Shown here in pieces: positions 24,929-34,307 of a stretch of 64,000 bases of DNA. The position numbers were made by a program, and so were the translations under genes. The notes beneath the pieces are model-generated. The model was not told the DNA's origin and did not search any database. It was given only the letters and a program-made list of their open reading frames with translations. Positions within the stretch are counted from its first letter, which is position 1. Each line of letters opens with the position of its first letter. Source of the stretch: Halalkalicoccus jeotgali B3 (GTDB taxonomy: Archaea > Halobacteriota > Halobacteria > Halobacteriales > Halalkalicoccaceae); the NCBI RefSeq assembly GCF_000196895.1, contig NC_014297.1, positions 1,999,345-2,063,344 of the forward strand. The letters run 5' to 3'.

Positions 24929-24983
24929 CGACGGCCGTAGACGCCGAACATACATAAGGGAATTTGCCGATAGTATCGAAACA

Positions 24984-25005
24984 AATATATTTTTTTAAAT
25001 ATATT
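24984..25005. promoter_or_regulatory. AT-rich palindrome between divergent genes
   Basis: A nearly pure A/T stretch of 22 bases forms an inverted repeat (AATATAT and ATATATT arms around TTTTTTAA). It sits 8-29 bases before the ATG at 25013, where a TATA box is expected, and could serve the zinc-ribbon gene in the other direction. In such GC-rich DNA it is conspicuous. Confidence 0.45.
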
Positions 25006-25012
25006 ATCCTCT

Positions 25013-26440
25013 ATGAACGTGTCGCGGCGCCGAGAGTGGCGATCGGGCGAACGCGGGCAGTCCGAGGTGATCGGCGTCGTGTTGGTGCTCTCGTTGACGG
25101 TGATCGGTGCGACCGCGCTCGCGGCGACGGGCGCCGCGGTGCTTTCCGACTCCCAGTCGAACGCCCAGCTCTCGCAGGCCGAGAACGCGATGTCCCAGAT
25201 GAGTTCGAAGGCTAGTCTGGTCGCGCTCGGCGACTCCGGAAGCCAGTCGTTCGATCTGGGACGGCTCGACGGCGGGACGGTCGATGTCCGCGAGGACGCC
25301 GGTTGTGTGACGGTGTACACGGAGAACGCGACCGGATCGAACGTGCTGTACTCCGAACCCTACGGCGCGGTCGTCGCGACCGTCGATGGGACGGACGTGG
25401 CCTATCAGGGCGGGGGCGTCTGGCGGACGGACGGCGACGGGAGCGTGATGGTCTCGCCGCCGGAGTTTCACTATCGGTCGGACACGCTGACGTTCCCGAT
25501 CGTTCGCGTGACCGGCGAGGGACGGGCGAGCGGGGCCGTGGACGGGCGGTTCACGAACGTCAACAAGAGCAGTCAGATCTATCCCGCCGGGAACCGCCAC
25601 AACCCCCTCGAAGAGGGGACGGTGATCGTCGAGATCGAGAGCGAGTACTACGAGGCGTGGGGACGGTTTTTCGACGAGCGGACCGCCGGCGAGGTCGAGA
25701 TCGACCACGGGAACCGGACGGTGCGGGTCGAACTCACCGTTCCGACCGAGGAGCGCATCGAGAACGCCGTCGCCGTCGCCGAACCGAACGGCATCACGGT
25801 AAACGGCCCCGAGAAACCGGAACCCTACCGCGAGGGAGTTCAGTACCCTTCGGCGGATTCGGCGATCGACGGACGGGTCGAGGCGTGTACCGACCCCGAC
25901 GGCGAATGCGTGGAGTTGACGGGCGAGACGACGATCACCGGCGAGGACGGGGAGACGACCCGGTACTACGCGAGCGACGGGACGCCCCCCGACGACCTGA
26001 CGGTCGAAACGAACGGCGGGGACGTCGAACTCGTCGTTGACGGCGTCTTCGAGCCGGACGGCCTCTCGGTCGAGGGCGACGGGACCGTCTCCGTATACGT
26101 CACCGAAGGGTTCTCGCTCGCCGGCAACTCCGGGGCGAACGTCGGCGGGGATGCCGCCCAGTTGCGGATCTACCTCCATTCCGAGACCACCATGTCGTCC
26201 CAGAGGGGGACCCCGTCGTTCACCGGTGTGCTCTACGCGCCGAGCACGGACGTCGACCTGAGCGGGAACACCGATTTCGAGGGCGCGCTGATCGCCAAAA
26301 CCCTCCATATCAACGGCAAGGCGGGCAACTTCGAGTACGACGAAGCCCTCGCGGAGATCGCGATCGAGATCACCCCCTCGCAGGACCCGATCAGATACCT
26401 CCACGTGACCGACAACGAGGTCGGTGTCGAACTCCGGTAG
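25013..26440 (+). CDS. Large pilin-like protein with class III signal peptide and C-terminal beta-rich domain
   Basis: The 475-residue product starts with a charged leader, the prepilin-peptidase motif ERGQSEVIG (RG|QS) and one hydrophobic helix (VVLVLSLTVIGATALAA), the layout of archaeal type IV pilins. The remainder is beta-rich and acidic, with a segment near 350-440 (GNSGANVGG, then FTGVLYAPSTDVDLSGNTDFEGAL) resembling adhesin or PilX-like domains of minor pilins. From memory the family resembles haloarchaeal DUF7289. It converges, with no gap, on the seven-gene secretion operon to its right, so it is probably an accessory subunit, perhaps the exposed tip. Confidence 0.82.
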   Translation: MNVSRRREWRSGERGQSEVIGVVLVLSLTVIGATALAATGAAVLSDSQSNAQLSQAENAMSQMSSKASLVALGDSGSQSFDLGRLDGGTVDVREDAGCVTVYTENATGSNVLYSEPYGAVVATVDGTDVAYQGGGVWRTDGDGSVMVSPPEFHYRSDTLTFPIVRVTGEGRASGAVDGRFTNVNKSSQIYPAGNRHNPLEEGTVIVEIESEYYEAWGRFFDERTAGEVEIDHGNRTVRVELTVPTEERIENAVAVAEPNGITVNGPEKPEPYREGVQYPSADSAIDGRVEACTDPDGECVELTGETTITGEDGETTRYYASDGTPPDDLTVETNGGDVELVVDGVFEPDGLSVEGDGTVSVYVTEGFSLAGNSGANVGGDAAQLRIYLHSETTMSSQRGTPSFTGVLYAPSTDVDLSGNTDFEGALIAKTLHINGKAGNFEYDEALAEIAIEITPSQDPIRYLHVTDNEVGVELR

Positions 26441-27175
26441 CTACCGGAGTCGCAACCGGACCCACGTGACCGAGACGGACGTGTACTCGCAGTCGACGGT
26501 GGACTCGCAGTCGATGGTGAACTCGACCGTGTCCCCGGTTCGATTGGGCTCCAGTTCCGACCGGTCCAGGTAGCGCTCCCAGACGTCCGCACGCGGCGAC
26601 TCGATCACGACGGTGACGGGCTCCTCGCTCCTCACGACGTGGAGTTGCGTCCGCTGGTGGGAACTCGTCACCAACACCGTCCGCTGGCCAGCGATCGACG
26701 CCCGGTCGCCGGGCGTCGTCGTCACCAGCAAGGGCAGGGTCGAGCGCTCGCCGACGATCAGCGGCGGCCCACCCAGCATCACGCCGTGATCGCCGTCGGT
26801 GCGAACGATACCGCCGAGTTCGTAGGCGATCTCCGTATCGCCGTTCCGATAGACCAGCGGGTACGTTTCGAACGTAGAACTGTTCTCACTGTTCTCACCC
26901 CACTCGACCGTGACTCGTACCGGCTCGCCGTGGGCGAGCGTCCCGCCCGAGAGACGCATCTCGGTCGACCGGCTCGGCGCACCATCCAGGTGGACTTCCT
27001 CGACATTCGTCCCGAGTACTTCGAAGGCCCGCTCGACGTTGGTGACCCGTTCGGTGTGCTGTGCGTCCTGTAGCCCGCCGAACCCGGCGGTGAAGACGAG
27101 CGCGATCGTCATCGTGATCAGCGAGAACGTGAGGACGAAGCCGAGGACCTCGCTGACCGCCCGGTCGTCGCTCAT
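26441..27175 (-). CDS. Pilin-like protein, class III signal peptide (DUF7289-like)
   Basis: A 244-residue protein beginning MSDDRAVSEVLG (RA|VS prepilin-peptidase motif) with the hydrophobic helix FVLTFSLITMTIALVFTAGF, then an acidic beta-rich region with GEPVRVTVEWG and a short disulfide-capable pair near the C-terminus (two Cys in TIDCESTVDCEY). It is the last gene of the operon running from 33813; its start overlaps the preceding stop by four bases. The N-terminal half resembles the convergent pilin-like protein at 25013, suggesting duplication. Likely a minor pilin of the same machine. Confidence 0.82.
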   Translation of the reverse strand: MSDDRAVSEVLGFVLTFSLITMTIALVFTAGFGGLQDAQHTERVTNVERAFEVLGTNVEEVHLDGAPSRSTEMRLSGGTLAHGEPVRVTVEWGENSENSSTFETYPLVYRNGDTEIAYELGGIVRTDGDHGVMLGGPPLIVGERSTLPLLVTTTPGDRASIAGQRTVLVTSSHQRTQLHVVRSEEPVTVVIESPRADVWERYLDRSELEPNRTGDTVEFTIDCESTVDCEYTSVSVTWVRLRLR

Positions 27176-27630
27176 GCGGAGGTGACCTCCAGTCGCTCGC
27201 TCCCGGAGGCGTACTCGATACGGAGGTCTCCGCCACGGAGTCGCGACGGCACAGTCACGTCGTGGGCCGTCGCGACCCGGGTCGTGGATTCGACCGCCGG
27301 ATCGCTCGTTGTGAGGGTGAGTTCGACGTGCTCGCTCTCGGGATCGGGGGCGATCTCGATCGCGTATCCGGCCCCCGCGACTCGACGCGGCAGCGCGACC
27401 GTGAGCCGGACGCTGGCGGCCTCGCCCTCCGCGCTCTGGGCTAGTCGATCCGCGCTCGCGAGGTCGGCGGCGAGTCGCTCCCCGAGGACGTCGAGTTGGT
27501 TCTGGATCGCGCGTTCGGACTGGGACTGCATCAGCGACCCCGCGGCGACGAACAGCCCGCTCAACAGCAACGCCGTGATGGCAAGCGTCAGCACGTAGTT
27601 AACGGTGACCGACACCCCGCGGTCGCTCAC
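27172..27630 (-). CDS. Small pilin-like protein (DUF7266-like)
   Basis: A 152-residue protein starting MSDRGVSVTVNYV (RG|VS motif) followed by the helix LTLAITALLLSGLFVAAGSL and an acidic globular part with VRLTVALPRRVAG and VELTLTTSDP strands. The class III signal implies processing by a prepilin peptidase and assembly by the ATPase/core proteins encoded upstream. It overlaps both neighbours by four bases, so the operon is tightly coupled. The DUF number is recalled, not checked. Confidence 0.82.
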   Translation of the reverse strand: MSDRGVSVTVNYVLTLAITALLLSGLFVAAGSLMQSQSERAIQNQLDVLGERLAADLASADRLAQSAEGEAASVRLTVALPRRVAGAGYAIEIAPDPESEHVELTLTTSDPAVESTTRVATAHDVTVPSRLRGGDLRIEYASGSERLEVTSA

Positions 27631-28481
27631 GCCGACTCACCCGCCTGCACGGTCGTTTCGGTGGTGTATTCGAGTTCCGCGGTCCGATAGTGGATCGCGA
27701 GGTCCACACTTTCGACGGTGGTCGGCCCCGTCGCCCGGAAGTCGTACGAGCCCGTCACCCGGTCGGCGTTCTCGTATCGGATCTCGTTCGGTTCGGTGGG
27801 GAGATCGAACGCGGCCTCTCGCCCGTCGATCGTCCCGTTTCCGAGATCCACCTTGACCGGGGTCGCGTTGGAGGGGCGCGCGAAGGTCCACGAGCTCCCG
27901 TTGGCCTCGATCGCGATCCGGGCGTCCTCCGTATCCGGCGTCGTCTCGACGGCGATCGTCAGCACCCAGTCGCCCACGACCAGTCGGAACGGGTCCTCCG
28001 AACCGGTCGCGGGTTCGACCGACTCGATCGTCAGGACGAACCGCTCCATGTCGGTTACGTTCCTCGCCACGGTCGCGTTGGATCCGCTCTCGGCGAACGC
28101 CCGGGATTCGATCTCCCAGTCGATCGGTGACCCCTCGTGGATCTCGGAGGTCGTCTCGGCGACCGCACCGCGGGCGAGGTGGCGCTCCGAGAGCGTCCTG
28201 TTGATGGTCTCGGTACCGTTCTCGACGCCCGCGACCGGCAGGTTCCCCTCGTAATAGCGTTCGTTTTCCGCGGCGATCAACTCGCTCACCGACCCGACGA
28301 CGGCCGCCCGGTACTCGAGCGCGTCGGCGCCGCCCGCGTCGACGCCACGGGTCGCCAGGTTCTCCGTATAGATGACCGTGTTCAACAGGACGACCAGCGC
28401 GACCAGCACCACGGCGATCGTCAACCCGGTCACGAGGATCAACTGGCCCCGCTCGGCCGTCGGGCGGCTCAGAGCCGCCAT
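27627..28481 (-). CDS. Pilin-like protein (DUF7261-like)
   Basis: A 284-residue protein with a 14-residue leader, the motif ERGQLILV (RG|QL) and a long hydrophobic helix (TGLTIAVVLVALVVLLNTVIY). The rest is acidic and beta-rich, with ENGT/NRT-type sequons suitable for N-glycosylation. It is the largest pilin-like protein of the operon itself. It overlaps the gene before it by 13 bases and the one after by four. Confidence 0.82.
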   Translation of the reverse strand: MAALSRPTAERGQLILVTGLTIAVVLVALVVLLNTVIYTENLATRGVDAGGADALEYRAAVVGSVSELIAAENERYYEGNLPVAGVENGTETINRTLSERHLARGAVAETTSEIHEGSPIDWEIESRAFAESGSNATVARNVTDMERFVLTIESVEPATGSEDPFRLVVGDWVLTIAVETTPDTEDARIAIEANGSSWTFARPSNATPVKVDLGNGTIDGREAAFDLPTEPNEIRYENADRVTGSYDFRATGPTTVESVDLAIHYRTAELEYTTETTVQAGESA

Positions 28482-29062
28482 ACGACGATCCTCACCTCCA
28501 CGACGGTGTACACCTGGCTGTCCGGGTCGATGTCGGCCGCGTAGAACTCGTCCTCGGCTTCAGCCAGCGTTTTCGACGCCGTTTCGTTGCCACCGAGTTC
28601 CGTCGAGTCGTAGAGAACGACCGTCCGCGTCGCCGAGACGGCGTTGTCGCTTGGCGAGCCCATCACGACCATCGGCTGTGTGTTCCACCCTGTCGATCCG
28701 GAGTCGCTCCGGTATCTCACGTCGACGTTGTACGCCAGCTGGCGGTCGGCGAGGAACGTCGAGAGAGTCTGCGAGAGCGGGTTCTCGGCAGGAGGTGTGG
28801 TGGTGTAGTAGGCCCGCTCCTCGGAGGAGGCGACGAATCCCGTGGTTTCGTTCCAGTGGACGACCGCCTCGCGAAGCGAGCCGTTCTCGGCGGTCACCGC
28901 GAGCAGGTCGTTCGCGACGGCTCGGTGTTGGTTCTCGAGGTGCTGGTTCGACGTACTCGCAGACAGGGGCGTCACGGCGGTCGCCTGACTCGCGAAGACG
29001 AGCCCGGCGACGAGGATCAGGGCGGCGACGAACGCTTCGAGGGTGTGGGCCTGTGCGCGCAC
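28469..29062 (-). CDS. Pilin-like protein (DUF7288-like)
   Basis: The 197-residue product is read from GTG at 29062, giving a very short leader, M/V-RAQAHTLEAF (RA|QA motif), and the helix VAALILVAGLVFASQATA. GTG is preferred because it is one base from the stop of the preceding gene and places the motif at the N-terminus; upstream in-frame codons give an Arg/Ser-rich tail unlike haloarchaeal protein. The acidic globular region contains NETTG and NETAS sequons. Part of the same secretion operon. Confidence 0.8.
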   Translation of the reverse strand: MRAQAHTLEAFVAALILVAGLVFASQATAVTPLSASTSNQHLENQHRAVANDLLAVTAENGSLREAVVHWNETTGFVASSEERAYYTTTPPAENPLSQTLSTFLADRQLAYNVDVRYRSDSGSTGWNTQPMVVMGSPSDNAVSATRTVVLYDSTELGGNETASKTLAEAEDEFYAADIDPDSQVYTVVEVRIVVWRL

Positions 29063-29063
29063 G

Positions 29064-29501
29064 CTACCACACCTCCACCGTGAGGCGGTGGTTCTCCCCG
29101 CCGATCGAGACGAGACGCTGGGAGATCGACACCGACGCGCCCGGTGGCGGCTCTTCGCCACAGGTCAATGCCGTTCCGTTCACTACCGCTGGATCGTCGC
29201 CCGATCCGATCGCGATCCGCGCGTTTCGTCCGTCGATCCCGAGTTCCGATTCGATCGGACAGGTCTCGAAGAACGCCTCCGTTTCAGTCGTCTCAAGCAG
29301 GTTCGGCGTCGTCGGATGCGAAACGAGGGTATCCTCCGCTAGCTGTGCGGCGCTGCGGTCGGCGACGAGATCGTCGTCCACGCCGTGGCCGGTAAAGGGG
29401 TCGAACATCGTCGGGACGAACGCGAAGACGAACCCGACCGCGATCAGGAAGACGGTCATCCCGACCAAGAAATCCATCCCCGTCTGTGCGCGCTCGCTCA
29501 T
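29064..29501 (-). CDS. Pilin-like protein (DUF7287-like)
   Basis: A 145-residue protein beginning MSERAQTGMDFLVG (RA|QT motif) with the helix MTVFLIAVGFVFAFVPTMF. The globular region has two cysteines (FETCPIE and LTCGEE), a possible disulfide outside the cell. It directly follows the membrane core gene, overlapping its stop by four bases, the usual place of a major or first pseudopilin. The ATG at 29501 is the only start that keeps the class III signal short. Confidence 0.82.
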   Translation of the reverse strand: MSERAQTGMDFLVGMTVFLIAVGFVFAFVPTMFDPFTGHGVDDDLVADRSAAQLAEDTLVSHPTTPNLLETTETEAFFETCPIESELGIDGRNARIAIGSGDDPAVVNGTALTCGEEPPPGASVSISQRLVSIGGENHRLTVEVW

Positions 29502-31507
29502 CCGACCACCGCCCAGACCGCAAGCGCGATCGTCAGTAACACGACGACGTACTTCACTCCACTCAGGATGGCCGCATCGCGGATGTAGCCGCTGATCAGC
29601 CCCGAGAGGATCGCCTGCATCGTCACCGCGTGAAAGAACAGCACCGACAGGAGCCCGGTATCGATTCCGCCGCCGAAACTGGGGCCGCCGCCGACGCTCG
29701 TGGCCTCCGCCCCGCCGGTGTCGAGACCGGCCATCACGTCGAGGAACTGGGTCTTGAGGATCGCCATCACTGCGAGCAACGTGAGGTAGGTCATGAGGAT
29801 GATCACGACCTGCATGCGGGTCCGAGAGCGGCGCTCGCGCTCGATCTCGTCTCGATTCTCGCTCGCCTGTGCTGCGGTCGTGAGGACGGCCGTGATCTGA
29901 CTCGAGGCCTCCTGGGCCTTGCTGATGAGTTTGACCGTCCGGGCCAGCCGGGGGATGTGGTACTCGTTGTTGAACTCCGTCAGCGAGTCCTTGAGACTCG
30001 TCCCGTAGGCGACCTTCGCGTGAATCACCTCGAACTCGCGGGCGAGCGGTCCCGAGGAGGTCTCGGCGACGACGCGGATGGATTCGAGCAGCGTCATGCC
30101 GGTCTCGTTGGCGCTCGAGAGTTTCCGGAGGGTATCCGAGAGCGACCCGGTGATCGCCGTCCGCGAGTGGACGTTCCACTCGCGAAAGACCGCGAGCGGA
30201 ACACAGACCACGTAGACGGGAACGTACACCCACAGGACGGTCGCGCCGACGGGCGCGGCGACAAAGCCCGACCACGACAGCGGTGCGGCCCCCGAGACGA
30301 CAGCGGTGATCAGTAGCGCCAGCGCGGCGGGTATCGTCAGCGCAAGCGTGTAGGTCGGGTGATCCCGGAAGAAGCGATGGGGATATCGGAGCAACCGTCC
30401 GGTCTCGTAGCTCCCCTCACGGCGCTCGATACGATCGAACATACCGAACCGTCCGGCGTACCGGTGGATCAGCCCGAGATCGAAGAGGGGGTTTCGTCCC
30501 GTCGAATCGGCCGTCTCGTCATCGGCCCCGAGATAGCCGTCGCCGGGTTCGTCCTGCTTGACCGTCGAGACGAGCACGAGAAAGCCCGCACCCACCAGCG
30601 GAATCAGCGCGTAGACCGTCGCATACAGCATGAACTCCGAGGCCTCCCCGAGCATGCTCATGATCACGAGCAGGATGATGAGAAGCAGGGGAAACAGCGA
30701 GAGGGTCATATACATCTCGCCGAACAGTTCGAGGGTCTCGAGGGTGAGTTCCTCCTGCTGTTTTGCGGTGCGCATGTGTTTGTCCTTCTTGTCCTCGAAA
30801 AAGCGCGTCATGTCGCCGCCGGAGTCGACGATCGAGAGCATGTCCGTCAGAAACTGGCTCAGTTCCTCGGAGGGGGTCTCGCGGGCCTGGGTCCTGATCG
30901 CACTGCGGTAGTCCGTATCGAAGTACTCGGTCTCGTGGACGATCGACTGGAACTCCCGGGAGACCTCCCCGTACGTGTCGTCGGCATTCGCTATCGCCTC
31001 GAGGATCTCGAGTTGGTTGAGTCCGCCGACCGACAGCGCGTACATGAACGCGATCGAGTCCGCAAGCAGCATATCGATCTCCCGTTTGCGCGCCGAGACC
31101 CGCGAGTAGGGGATCGCCACGAGCGCACCGAACGCGAGTGCGAACCCGGCCGACCCGAAGGTCACGCCGGTGATCAGGACCAGCGAGGGGATCCGCGCCG
31201 CGATCACGAGTTCGAGCAACCGGTCGTTGGGGATCGACACGCCGATGATCGGCGGGGAAACCAGCCCGGTTGCGAACAGTCCGTATCCCGCGGCGATACC
31301 GACGATCCACAGCAACCCCCCCGAAAGCACGCCGTAGGCGAGCGCCCGCGAGAGGTAGTGTTCGACGGTATCGCCCATCCGGGCCCGCTTGAGCGTGGTC
31401 TGGAACTCGGCGGCGAACTGGCTGTCCTCACCGAACAGGCGACGATAGAGCGGGTAGAAGGCGTCGCCGAGTCGGTCGGTCCCGCCTTCCCCGAGCGCGA
31501 GGCTCAC
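29498..31507 (-). CDS. Archaeal type IV pilus/Tad membrane core protein (two T2SSF/TadC domains)
   Basis: A 669-residue protein with two GspF/TadC-type domains in tandem: one about residues 135-300 (MLADSIAFMYALSVGGLNQL and TRFFEDKKDKH), another about 490-610 (TLRKLSSANETGMTLLESI, YGTSLKDSL), each followed by membrane helices. This double form corresponds to bacterial TadB plus TadC in one chain and forms the platform on which the ATPase acts. It overlaps the ATPase gene and the first pilin-like gene by four bases each. Symbols such as pilC are used for homologues, but the paralogue number cannot be set. Confidence 0.93.
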   Translation of the reverse strand: MSLALGEGGTDRLGDAFYPLYRRLFGEDSQFAAEFQTTLKRARMGDTVEHYLSRALAYGVLSGGLLWIVGIAAGYGLFATGLVSPPIIGVSIPNDRLLELVIAARIPSLVLITGVTFGSAGFALAFGALVAIPYSRVSARKREIDMLLADSIAFMYALSVGGLNQLEILEAIANADDTYGEVSREFQSIVHETEYFDTDYRSAIRTQARETPSEELSQFLTDMLSIVDSGGDMTRFFEDKKDKHMRTAKQQEELTLETLELFGEMYMTLSLFPLLLIILLVIMSMLGEASEFMLYATVYALIPLVGAGFLVLVSTVKQDEPGDGYLGADDETADSTGRNPLFDLGLIHRYAGRFGMFDRIERREGSYETGRLLRYPHRFFRDHPTYTLALTIPAALALLITAVVSGAAPLSWSGFVAAPVGATVLWVYVPVYVVCVPLAVFREWNVHSRTAITGSLSDTLRKLSSANETGMTLLESIRVVAETSSGPLAREFEVIHAKVAYGTSLKDSLTEFNNEYHIPRLARTVKLISKAQEASSQITAVLTTAAQASENRDEIERERRSRTRMQVVIILMTYLTLLAVMAILKTQFLDVMAGLDTGGAEATSVGGGPSFGGGIDTGLLSVLFFHAVTMQAILSGLISGYIRDAAILSGVKYVVVLLTIALAVWAVVG

Positions 31508-33813
31508 GGGGAGTCGGCCCCGCGTCCGTCGGTCGCGAGCTCGACACCGGTCGTCTCCGGCGAGTCACGGTACCCCTCGAAGAGGCGCTCGTCGGCGTGT
31601 TCGAGGATGGATCTTGCGAGTTCGGCTGTCCGCTCGTCAGGATCGGGCCGGGGGACGAGCGCTTCCGTCTGAGAATCGACGTCGATCAGAACGCTCTCCA
31701 TCGAGCGCAGGTCGGCCAAATTCTCGGTGAGTCGGTCGTTCGCGATCAGTTCGACGATCGTCTCGGGGTCGTTGATGAACGCCTGCAGGGTCGCGGCGAC
31801 CTGCCGGTACTCGTTGAGACCGTTGTCGATGAGGTAGGCAAGTACCGCCTGCCGAACGAGCAACTGCTCTTGTAGCTCTTCGCGGCTCCACCCGCGGTCG
31901 AAGCGGATCTCCTCGAGTGTGTTCGAATCGCCGACCTCGAGGAACTCGTCCGACTCGGCCTGCCACTCGTAGACGTCCCGGACGTTGATCTCGTCGTGTT
32001 CGGCGTCGTAGTGGTTGATCTCGGTCAGGGACTTGTTGCGCCGGACCTTCCGACCCCGTACCCGGGTGGAGGTCTGGACCGAGACGAGATCCAGCGCCGT
32101 GAACATCGTCTTCGAGACGTTGATCGGGTCGGTCGTAAAGCGTTTCAGCACCTCACCCACGCTGTCGGCGTGGAAGGTGGTGTAGGTGGTGTGGCCCGTC
32201 GACATCACCTGAAACAGCGTGCGCCCTTCCTCACCCCTGATCTCGCCCATCACGATGTAGTCGGGCCGTTGGCGAAGCGCGGCTTCGAGTAGGTCGAACT
32301 CGTCGACGTCGCCGCCATCGCCCTCCGAAAAGGAGGGCCGCGTTACGGAGGCGATCCAGTTTCGCTGGGGGAGTTCGACCTCGCGGGTGTCCTCGATCGA
32401 GACGATCTTCGCGTTCGAGGGGATGAACAGCGAGACGGCGTTCAGGCTCGTGGTCTTCCCGCTCGCGGTGCCGCCCGCGAAGATCAGTGATTTGTGGTTC
32501 TCGATACAGAGCCAGAGGTAGGCCATCTGTTCGAGCGAGAAGGTATGCCAGTTGATCAGGTCGATCGGGGTGAAGGGAACGTCCTTGAACTGTCGGATGG
32601 TGTAGTTGGTGCCGTGATCCGAGACCTCCCGACCCAGTGTGAGTTGGGCCCGCGAGCCATCGGGGAGGGTCGCATCGACCTGTGGGCGACGCTTGCTGAT
32701 CCCCTTGCCCGAGCGCTGGGCGAGTTTGACCACGAAGTCGTCGAGGCGCTCGCGTCCGTGGGCCACGTTGGTGATGATCTGCTCGTAGTCGGTGTGGTAG
32801 ACGAAGACGGGCGAGTCGTAGCCGTCACAGGAGATGTCCTCGACGTTGATGTCGTGTTTGATCGGGTCGATCCGCTCGTAGCCGACGAAGTCGCGCGTGA
32901 GATAGTACAGCAGCTTCGTGACCTGCGCTTCGGTCACCGTCTCGGGGTCCTCCGCGAGGATCGCCGGCTCCGGACGGACGGGATCGACCGCCGAGTGCGT
33001 CACCGCCTCCTCCCGTCCGAAAAGCGATCGGATCCGGTCGAACACTCCGCGGTCGGACCGTTCGAGCAGGTCATAGCGGTCGAGCAGCCGTCTGGTTTCT
33101 CGCTCGATGACCGACGTTCGCTCCTCGACGCTTCCCTCGACGCTCACCTCGTCGTCGGAGTACTTGATCGCGGTGCGCAGTTTGCCCGTGAGGAACTCGG
33201 CGAGGTCGGTTTCGATCGGGTTGAGATACGGCTCGATCGCGTAGTACTTGATCTCGTTTTCCTTTCGGGAGTGAAAAACGATCACGAACGAGTAGGGTTC
33301 GTTGACCCAGTAGCGCTCGACCTCCTCGAAGTGGCGCTTTTTCGCCATCGGAACGGCCCTCTCTAGGTCGTACCGGGTCGTGATCGTCGGCTCCCCGTGC
33401 GAGGTAAAGAAGGCGTCTTCGTCGACGGCGGGGTTGACGTCGACGGTCCGTTCCTCGATGAGCGTCGAGAGTGCGCTCGCGGCCGCCACGCCCGAGCGAA
33501 GGACTGCCGCCGTCCGATCGGGAGCGAATCCCAGCAGTTCCACGGGCTCGAACGGGATCGGGTCGCCCGCCGAATCACGGGGCACCGACCCGTCCTCCTC
33601 GTAGTAGTACTTCCTCTTGACGTGTGCCCACCCATATAGGTCCTTGCGGACCAACCGGTCGGGATCGAGATAGGCATTCAGTCGTTTCGCGGTCGTGACA
33701 GCGACGGCGACGCTTCCCGGGACGCCGGCGGGACGATCCCCGACGCTCGGGTCGTCTCCCGTCGAGGGCGACGTCGATTTCCCTCGAACCCCCGTGGTGT
33801 CGTCCATCGGCAT
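31504..33813 (-). CDS. Type IV pilus/Tad-type secretion ATPase (PilB/TadA/VirB11 family)
   Basis: A 769-residue ATPase that powers assembly. About 330 N-terminal residues form a region without a recognised motif; the ATPase follows: IFAGGTASGKTTSLNA Walker A (in the last 45 percent of the chain), an Asp box (IVSIEDTREVELP), Walker B YIVMGEIRGEEGR and the His box (MSTGHTTYTTFHAD). It heads the operon. The ATG at 33813 is taken; ATG 33807 is equally possible because a TATA-like CTATATG lies about 25 bases upstream of it. No prepilin peptidase gene is in the window, so processing must be supplied elsewhere. Confidence 0.94.
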   Translation of the reverse strand: MPMDDTTGVRGKSTSPSTGDDPSVGDRPAGVPGSVAVAVTTAKRLNAYLDPDRLVRKDLYGWAHVKRKYYYEEDGSVPRDSAGDPIPFEPVELLGFAPDRTAAVLRSGVAAASALSTLIEERTVDVNPAVDEDAFFTSHGEPTITTRYDLERAVPMAKKRHFEEVERYWVNEPYSFVIVFHSRKENEIKYYAIEPYLNPIETDLAEFLTGKLRTAIKYSDDEVSVEGSVEERTSVIERETRRLLDRYDLLERSDRGVFDRIRSLFGREEAVTHSAVDPVRPEPAILAEDPETVTEAQVTKLLYYLTRDFVGYERIDPIKHDINVEDISCDGYDSPVFVYHTDYEQIITNVAHGRERLDDFVVKLAQRSGKGISKRRPQVDATLPDGSRAQLTLGREVSDHGTNYTIRQFKDVPFTPIDLINWHTFSLEQMAYLWLCIENHKSLIFAGGTASGKTTSLNAVSLFIPSNAKIVSIEDTREVELPQRNWIASVTRPSFSEGDGGDVDEFDLLEAALRQRPDYIVMGEIRGEEGRTLFQVMSTGHTTYTTFHADSVGEVLKRFTTDPINVSKTMFTALDLVSVQTSTRVRGRKVRRNKSLTEINHYDAEHDEINVRDVYEWQAESDEFLEVGDSNTLEEIRFDRGWSREELQEQLLVRQAVLAYLIDNGLNEYRQVAATLQAFINDPETIVELIANDRLTENLADLRSMESVLIDVDSQTEALVPRPDPDERTAELARSILEHADERLFEGYRDSPETTGVELATDGRGADSP

Positions 33814-34234: not shown

Positions 34235-34307
34235 CGGGCGTGACGGGATTCGAACCCGCGGTCTGAAGGTTAGGAACCTTCCGCCCTATCCGCTAGGCCA
34301 CACGCCC
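34235..34307 (-). tRNA. tRNA-Arg (CCT)
   Basis: On the minus strand the acceptor stem GGGCGTG pairs with CACGCCC, the D stem GCCT/GGGC is complete, and the anticodon stem GAAGG/CCTTC encloses TTCCTAA with anticodon CCT (complement of 34272-34274), reading AGG. The T arm has GGTTCGAAT. Discriminator G; CCA not encoded; no intron. Confidence 0.96.

Follow-up and report, generated by a model that had tools for sequence, protein, structure and literature searches.

Gene content and organisation of the probable pilus locus

The DNA considered here (the window) is a stretch of 64,000 nucleotides from the haloarchaeon Halalkalicoccus jeotgali B3 (contig NC_014297.1, positions 1,999,345 to 2,063,344). 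Positions 25013 to 33813 of the window contain an eight-gene locus, probably for a type IV pilus, which is a hair-like fibre on the cell surface. An earlier sequence-only reading of the window had described one ATPase, one double TadC protein and six pilin-like proteins, encoded by seven tightly packed genes and an eighth which converges on them; open reading frames (ORFs) and Pfam matches agree with this layout, and all eight genes are found at the coordinates which that reading gave. The seven genes on the minus strand form a single operon in which neighbouring ORFs overlap by 4 or 13 nt, plus a single 1-nt gap. The convergent gene, gene A (25013-26440, plus strand), stops directly against position 26441, with no gap.

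The first two genes of the operon are adjacent and encode the motor. The assembly ATPase (31504-33813, minus strand; 769 amino acids) belongs to the VirB11/GspE family and is PilB4-like (Pfam T2SSE, 104.6 bits; PilB3_C, 40.2 bits). The membrane platform protein (29498-31507, minus strand; 669 amino acids) is of the PilC type and has two TadC/T2SSF domains, seen as two T2SSF stretches. The T2SSE match of the ATPase and the double T2SSF match of the platform protein are over the Pfam cut-off.

Five pilin genes follow on the minus strand. Genes F (DUF7287; 29064-29501; 145 amino acids; signal RA/QT), E (DUF7288; 28469-29062, with a GTG start at 29062; 197 amino acids; RA/QA; 215 bits) and D (DUF7261; 27627-28481; 284 amino acids; RG/QL; 36.8 bits) encode putative minor pilins. 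Gene C encodes a small pilin (DUF7266; 27172-27630; 152 amino acids; RG/VS; 96.7 bits). Gene B encodes a further putative minor pilin (DUF7289; 26441-27175; 244 amino acids; RA/VS; 199.5 bits), which is a headless paralogue of the product of gene A and is 29% identical to its pilin module. Gene A (signal RG/QS) encodes the proposed tip pilin. It matches DUF7289 and DUF7305 and, more weakly, the ice-binding-like family pAdhesive_15; a DUF7289 pilin module is followed by a DUF7305 beta-solenoid (residues ~244-448) and then by a conserved last strand (462-474). All six pilins are thus assigned to Pfam families of unknown function. The earlier reading saw no abundant small pilin here. Two of the products are in fact small (152 and 145 amino acids); neither is a PilA-type major pilin.

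Class III signals

The six class III signals proposed from the letters of the window are present, and all six motifs start with R. Their conservation was examined in orthologues from 80 haloarchaeal loci, which were fetched via the ATPase; a FlaFind-type 4-mer was scored at the site aligned to the window motif. The site is retained in 354 of 371 orthologues (A, 13/15; B, 77/82; C, 60/67; D, 67/69; E, 68/69; F, 69/69). A rough chance scan of the window, with a stricter hydrophobicity filter, recovered just three of the six signals, so the claim that they are not due to chance rests on the conservation test. Long N-terminal helices are predicted in both of the pilins that were modelled (DUF7266 and the product of gene A). 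In each of 69 DUF7287 orthologues the fifth residue of the mature protein is Asp, and in each of 69 DUF7288 orthologues the sixth is Glu. These residues recall Glu5, which is conserved in bacterial pilins (PMC10191384); by analogy, they may have a parallel function.

Distribution and gene order

The operon is close to universal in haloarchaea. Its marker family, DUF7288, occurs in 185 of 194 Halobacteria genomes (approximately 95%) and in 61 of 65 genera; among 14 control genomes, it is found in Haloferax volcanii only. DUF7289 is present in 113 of 116 sampled genomes, and also in two of the controls, H. volcanii and Methanosarcina acetivorans. The order ATPase-TadC-7287-7288-7261-7266-7289 is complete in 66 of the 80 named loci, and several of the remaining loci are short contigs. 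The pilin genes therefore co-occur with this ATPase in other genomes, as would be expected if they form one system. In a sample of 40 genomes, one per genus, drawn from the genomes of the DUF7288 survey, the cassette 7287-7288-(7261)-7266-7289 is kept with few exceptions: DUF7261 is undetected in four genomes, and one locus has a tip-type pilin alone at the DUF7289 position.

Individual loci vary in other ways. Three have a motor pair with no pilins nearby (L039, L040 and L085), and seven have a pilin cassette with no motor pair nearby (L152, L162, L165, L167, L172, L180 and L184). In genus g26 (genome G044) a single pilin of 540 amino acids follows the motor pair and replaces the DUF72xx set (L140:5014-6636, minus strand); it has an Ig-like Big_1 match slightly below the Pfam cut-off. 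L139 (G156:C1:1026000-1040000) has orthologues of the ATPase and TadC genes that are split into several frames, with an in-frame TAG within the ATPase match. In Halobaculum saliterrae (L036) a PilB3-like ATPase-TadC pair directly precedes the PilB4-like operon.

Relationships of the assembly ATPase

Among solved structures, the ATPase scores best against afGspE (2OAP; 398 bits), which belongs to clade 2, and lower against FlaI (238 bits). Together with the paralogue identities given below, this would place it nearer to clade 2 (afGspE, PilB3) than to clade 4 of the crenarchaeal type. Against models it scores 402 bits for FlaI, 190 bits for BasE and 136.7 bits for TadA, for which the cut-off is 373. 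None of the local pilins matches a Tad/Flp pilin family in Pfam. The label "Tad", which had been given to the locus, is thus a loose one.

The paralogue tree of haloarchaeal ATPases contains groups at ~50% (PilB3-like), ~40% (FlaI-like) and ~30% identity; the groups were named by inference, the ~30% group being presumed to be subclade 4C. The window ATPase has a core at residues ~294-686, flanked by a long extra N-terminal region and a shorter C-terminal one, and PilB3-like frames are 550-575 amino acids long. PMC4858521 describes a PilB4 locus type (H. volcanii HVO_1160) with a Halobacteria-specific ATPase which has extra N- and C-terminal regions, belongs to clade 2 and is accompanied by its own pilins. 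Because its ATPase has long extra terminal regions and it has a private pilin set, the present locus fits the clade-2 "PilB4" system of Makarova rather than subclade 4C, as far as sequence relationships indicate. The same source describes a PilB4 signature pilin, arCOG02911, which varies in length (~250-550 amino acids) and is duplicated; DUF7289 fits this account, the two being compared by description only.

A single motor and PilA-type pilins elsewhere in the genome

The window genome (3.7 Mb, 98.6% complete) contains one T2SSE pilus motor and no other recognisable one; the second T2SSE match is a PIN/KH ATPase. It also has a single TadC/T2SSF gene, a single A24 peptidase gene and two stand-alone Pilin_N (PilA-type) genes. 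The peptidase gene (Peptidase_A24, PibD-like) lies at C1:53862 (47 bits; the ORF has a GGAD motif). It had been noted that no peptidase is encoded at the locus, which is correct; with the prepilin peptidase and the PilA-type pilins encoded elsewhere, the description of the locus as self-contained is not supported. One stand-alone pilin (L005) matches PilA2, the subunit of a solved Natrinema filament (5.8e-16).

Single-motor genomes among those sampled are the window genome (G000), G047, G117 and G143. All carry DUF7288 and retain Pilin_N genes. In G047 (L187) two PilA genes lie directly before a DUF7289-DUF7305 pilin, and in G143 (L188) such a pilin lies ~3.3 kb from a PilA pair. Because PilA genes persist in single-motor genomes, and adjoin or lie near a tip-type pilin in G047 and G143, a filament with a PilA body is favoured over a pilin-poor pseudopilus; this is short of proof.

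No FlaI-like archaellum ATPase was found in the window genome. One is present in the congener G133 (L127), with 41% identity to the window ATPase. The archaellum of the window strain seems to have been lost or to be absent from the assembly.

A proposed tip slot with exchangeable heads

At the end of the operon there is a slot which is occupied by a large DUF7289 pilin in 28 of the 40 genera, usually in convergent orientation. The head carried at this slot varies: it is DUF7308 in 15 genera and DUF7305 in nine, and four genera have other large pilins there. Among the named loci, VWA heads are found in L043, L066 and L059, and proteins of ~1300 amino acids bearing CARDB are found in L035, L046 and L064. 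DUF7305 is present in 126 of 194 genomes, in up to five copies.

The DUF7305- and DUF7308-type tips align over their last ~39 columns only (hhalign probability 90.5, E 1.4e-6). A C-terminal strand motif is found in 15 of 15 DUF7305 tips and 6 of 6 DUF7308 tips, compared with 1 of 14145 background ORFs. In gene A the pilin module ends early and the conserved C-terminal strand comes after the head. Since the tips align only at the C-terminus and the strand motif is conserved, two heads with no detectable sequence relation to each other appear to share both the pilin module that precedes them and the last strand that follows them.

In five loci (L082, L151, L153, L181 and L185) the pair is inverted; the operon ends with the tip pilin, and it is the headless DUF7289 pilin that is convergent. 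The possibility that the convergent pair switches phase by inversion was considered and rejected: no long inverted repeats were found, and A shares only 29% identity with B. The operon type itself is already included in a 2016 census; what is claimed as new is the variant with an exchangeable-head tip slot. No description of exchangeable heads or of a fixed tip slot in archaeal pili was found in a partial survey of the literature.

Predicted folds

AlphaFold models were made for the products of two pilin genes. That of gene A (predicted local distance difference test score, pLDDT, 77.9) has a long N-terminal helix, a beta domain and a solenoid. In VIA-align comparisons the predicted solenoid resembles many ice-binding proteins (Z 13-15.5); ComZ, a competence pilin of Thermus, also matches it (6qvi; Z 10.2 over 180 residues). 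A profile search against PDB found no relation in sequence between gene A and either ComZ or ice-binding proteins. In ComZ, which has been proposed to be a tip pilin, a solenoid of the ice-binding type is inserted ahead of the final pilin strand; the partner of ComZ, PilA2, folds like GspI/EpsI (PMC6561018).

The DUF7266 model (pLDDT 92.5) has a 61-residue N-terminal helix and antiparallel strands. Its best VIA-align matches are the GspI/EpsI/XcpV pseudopilins (Z 5.2-5.5), followed by PAK pilin (4.9); the next row is at 3.9. With Foldseek alone, neither model had a match below E 0.001.

Flanking genes and viral matches

Ordinary genes flank the locus, among the neighbours tested: a MATE exporter on one side and tRNA-Arg, TatA and ThrS beyond the ATPase. 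The tRNA-Arg (cct) gene lies at 34235-34307, ~0.4 kb upstream of the ATPase start and beside TatA and ThrS. There is an AT-rich palindrome at 24974-25001, just upstream of the start of gene A, which may be part of that gene's own promoter region. Four of the pilin genes (A, D, E and F; 25013-29501) have matches among viral PHROGs families, possibly because provirus boundaries were drawn too wide. A viral origin was rejected, since an IMG/VR scan with E and INPHARED searches with E and A gave no match.

Proposed anatomy of the pilus

Taken together, the evidence makes it probable that the locus is a haloarchaeal clade-2 PilB4-type pilus operon, in which the operon pilins prime the filament and form its tip, gene A supplies a tip pilin with an exchangeable head and the PilA body is provided in trans. 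Going by family membership, the ATPase and the double TadC protein would form the motor, and the single PibD-like peptidase would process the operon pilins. The five operon pilins (DUF7287, 7288, 7261, 7266 and 7289) may form a priming or tip complex which starts the filament. The product of gene A would be an alternative DUF7289 tip pilin onto which an ice-binding-protein-type solenoid head has been grafted, and this head may contact a surface, another cell or a polymer. The filament body would most likely consist of PilA-type major pilins. The start, tip and body roles are drawn from gene content, co-location and bacterial parallels (PMC8179133, PMC10191384, PMC12075869); it is on this basis that we infer priming, tip location, stoichiometry, a major pilin in trans and adhesion. 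The earlier view of the locus as an archaeal type IV filament machine with mostly minor local pilins is supported.

A more specific proposal can be made, which we put forward tentatively as a possibility rather than as the expected outcome. The minor pilins may form a priming complex equivalent to the bacterial GspHIJK, PilHIJK or ComZ-PilA2 tip. A DUF7289 pilin would cap this complex, and its head (solenoid, VWA, CARDB or DUF7308) would have been exchanged between lineages at a fixed slot. This would be a modular archaeal tip which chooses what the cell binds.

Several points weigh against the proposed anatomy. We found no experiments on the locus or its direct orthologues in the literature. 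In 7 of the 40 sampled loci the motor pair is outside the fetched upstream stretch and is not beside the pilin cassette, and three genomes (G044, G072 and G156) have the ATPase orthologue but not DUF7288. The slot has no tip gene in 12 of the 40 genera. The head may be inserted before the last strand of the pilin sheet, but the score of the DUF7289 hidden Markov model rises little more when the C-terminal strand is added to the pilin module than when shuffled tails are. The window genome is an assembly of seven contigs, from which a further motor could be missing. The assignment to PilB4 follows the published description of the HVO_1160 type and not a sequence match to HVO_1160. Models cover two of the six pilins, and the Z of only ~5 between DUF7266 and GspI is modest and concerns fold similarity only.

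Of the other explanations, one would make the pilus independent of PilA, with DUF7266 as its abundant major pilin. DUF7266 is small (152 amino acids), is a retained part of the operon and matches Pilin_N weakly (E 0.023); moreover, PMC4858521 predicts a dedicated PilA-related major pilin (arCOG03926) for PilB4 loci. However, it is a single gene within an operon of overlapping minor pilin genes, and its predicted fold is like that of GspI, a minor tip pilin. We consider this role for DUF7266 unlikely.

The sequence-only reading had favoured a pseudopilus or short secretion machine, that is, a structure which exports proteins in the manner of type II secretion and forms no long filament. Most local pilins are indeed large or look like minor subunits, the predicted fold of DUF7266 resembles GspI/EpsI/XcpV, and the invariant Asp5 and Glu6 are reminiscent of Glu5 in pseudopilins as well as pilins. 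However, minor pilins of such folds are normal in type IV pilus tips (PMC10191384), and no secreted substrate is linked to the locus. The motor is the only one in the genome, yet PilA-type pilins are kept, as they are in the other single-motor genomes, two of which have them next to (G047) or close to (G143) a tip-type pilin. A pseudopilus is accordingly improbable and is no longer the favoured explanation. A DNA-capture pilus, in which the solenoid tip pilin would be a ComZ-like DNA receptor of a machine feeding DNA uptake, is very improbable: the gene A head matches ComZ as well as ice-binding proteins in its predicted fold, and DUF7266 is predicted to resemble GspI/EpsI as ComZ's partner PilA2 does (PMC6561018), but VWA, CARDB or DUF7308 heads in other genera suggest different ligands rather than one conserved DNA receptor, and no second T2SSE motor (a retraction ATPase) was found in the genome.

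The PilB4-type anatomy matters because the marker family is so widely distributed, at ~95% of sampled Halobacteria genomes, yet the system has been little studied by experiment. The sole experimental data found for the PilB4 type concern expression: pilB4-C4 drops in Haloferax gibbonsii during infection by HFTV1 (PMC12542753). The proposal gives a set of DUF families an anatomy that can be tested, with motor, priming pilins and exchangeable tip. Single-motor genomes would offer a clean background for asking which pilins the machine assembles. If the proposal is correct, archaea share with bacteria the strategy of grafting a head onto a pilin, which lies behind the functional variety of bacterial pili.

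Comparison with known pilus systems

A close counterpart is the PilB4 type. It has in common with the present locus an ATPase with extra termini, the clade-2 relationship and several pilins of its own, and the variable length of its signature pilin is in keeping with DUF7289. PMC4858521 treats that pilin as a minor structural one and, in the sections consulted, mentions neither exchangeable heads nor a tip slot. The PilB1-C1 system of H. volcanii, deletion of which lowers surface adhesion, and pil-2 of H. salinarum also have an ATPase-TadC-pilin operon (PMC6491452, PMC4292770). According to PMC4858521, PilB1-C1 also has pilin families in common with this system. PilB1 is placed in subclade 4C (PMC6491452), as apparently is pil-2 (PMC4292770). 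The window ATPase falls apart from the ~30% group, which is presumed to be 4C.

The Tad/Flp pilus has a similar TadC-type platform and an ATPase of the TadA/VirB11 class. It differs in that the window ATPase is far below the TadA cut-off and the local pilins match no Tad/Flp pilin family. The GspGHIJK pseudopilus likewise has several minor pilins, with a GspI fold which DUF7266 is predicted to resemble, but no GspC-, GspL- or GspM-type parts and no substrate were recognised at the locus, and PilA-type pilins are kept in single-motor genomes.

Thermus ComZ/PilA2 (PMC6561018) provides a structural parallel for the proposed tip: a pilin with a large ice-binding-protein-type beta-solenoid, as predicted for gene A, and a partner pilin of the GspI/EpsI fold. 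It differs in that no sequence relation was detected, DUF7305 was not found in the Thermus control genome and the motor described here is archaeal. PilB of Streptococcus sanguinis and other bacterial modular pilins (PMC8179133), together with adaptable Tad tips (PMC12075869), also carry functional heads, including VWA, on a pilin module and are modelled at the tip. In the haloarchaeal system, by comparison, heads are exchanged at a fixed slot, which adjoins a single conserved operon of archaeal type.

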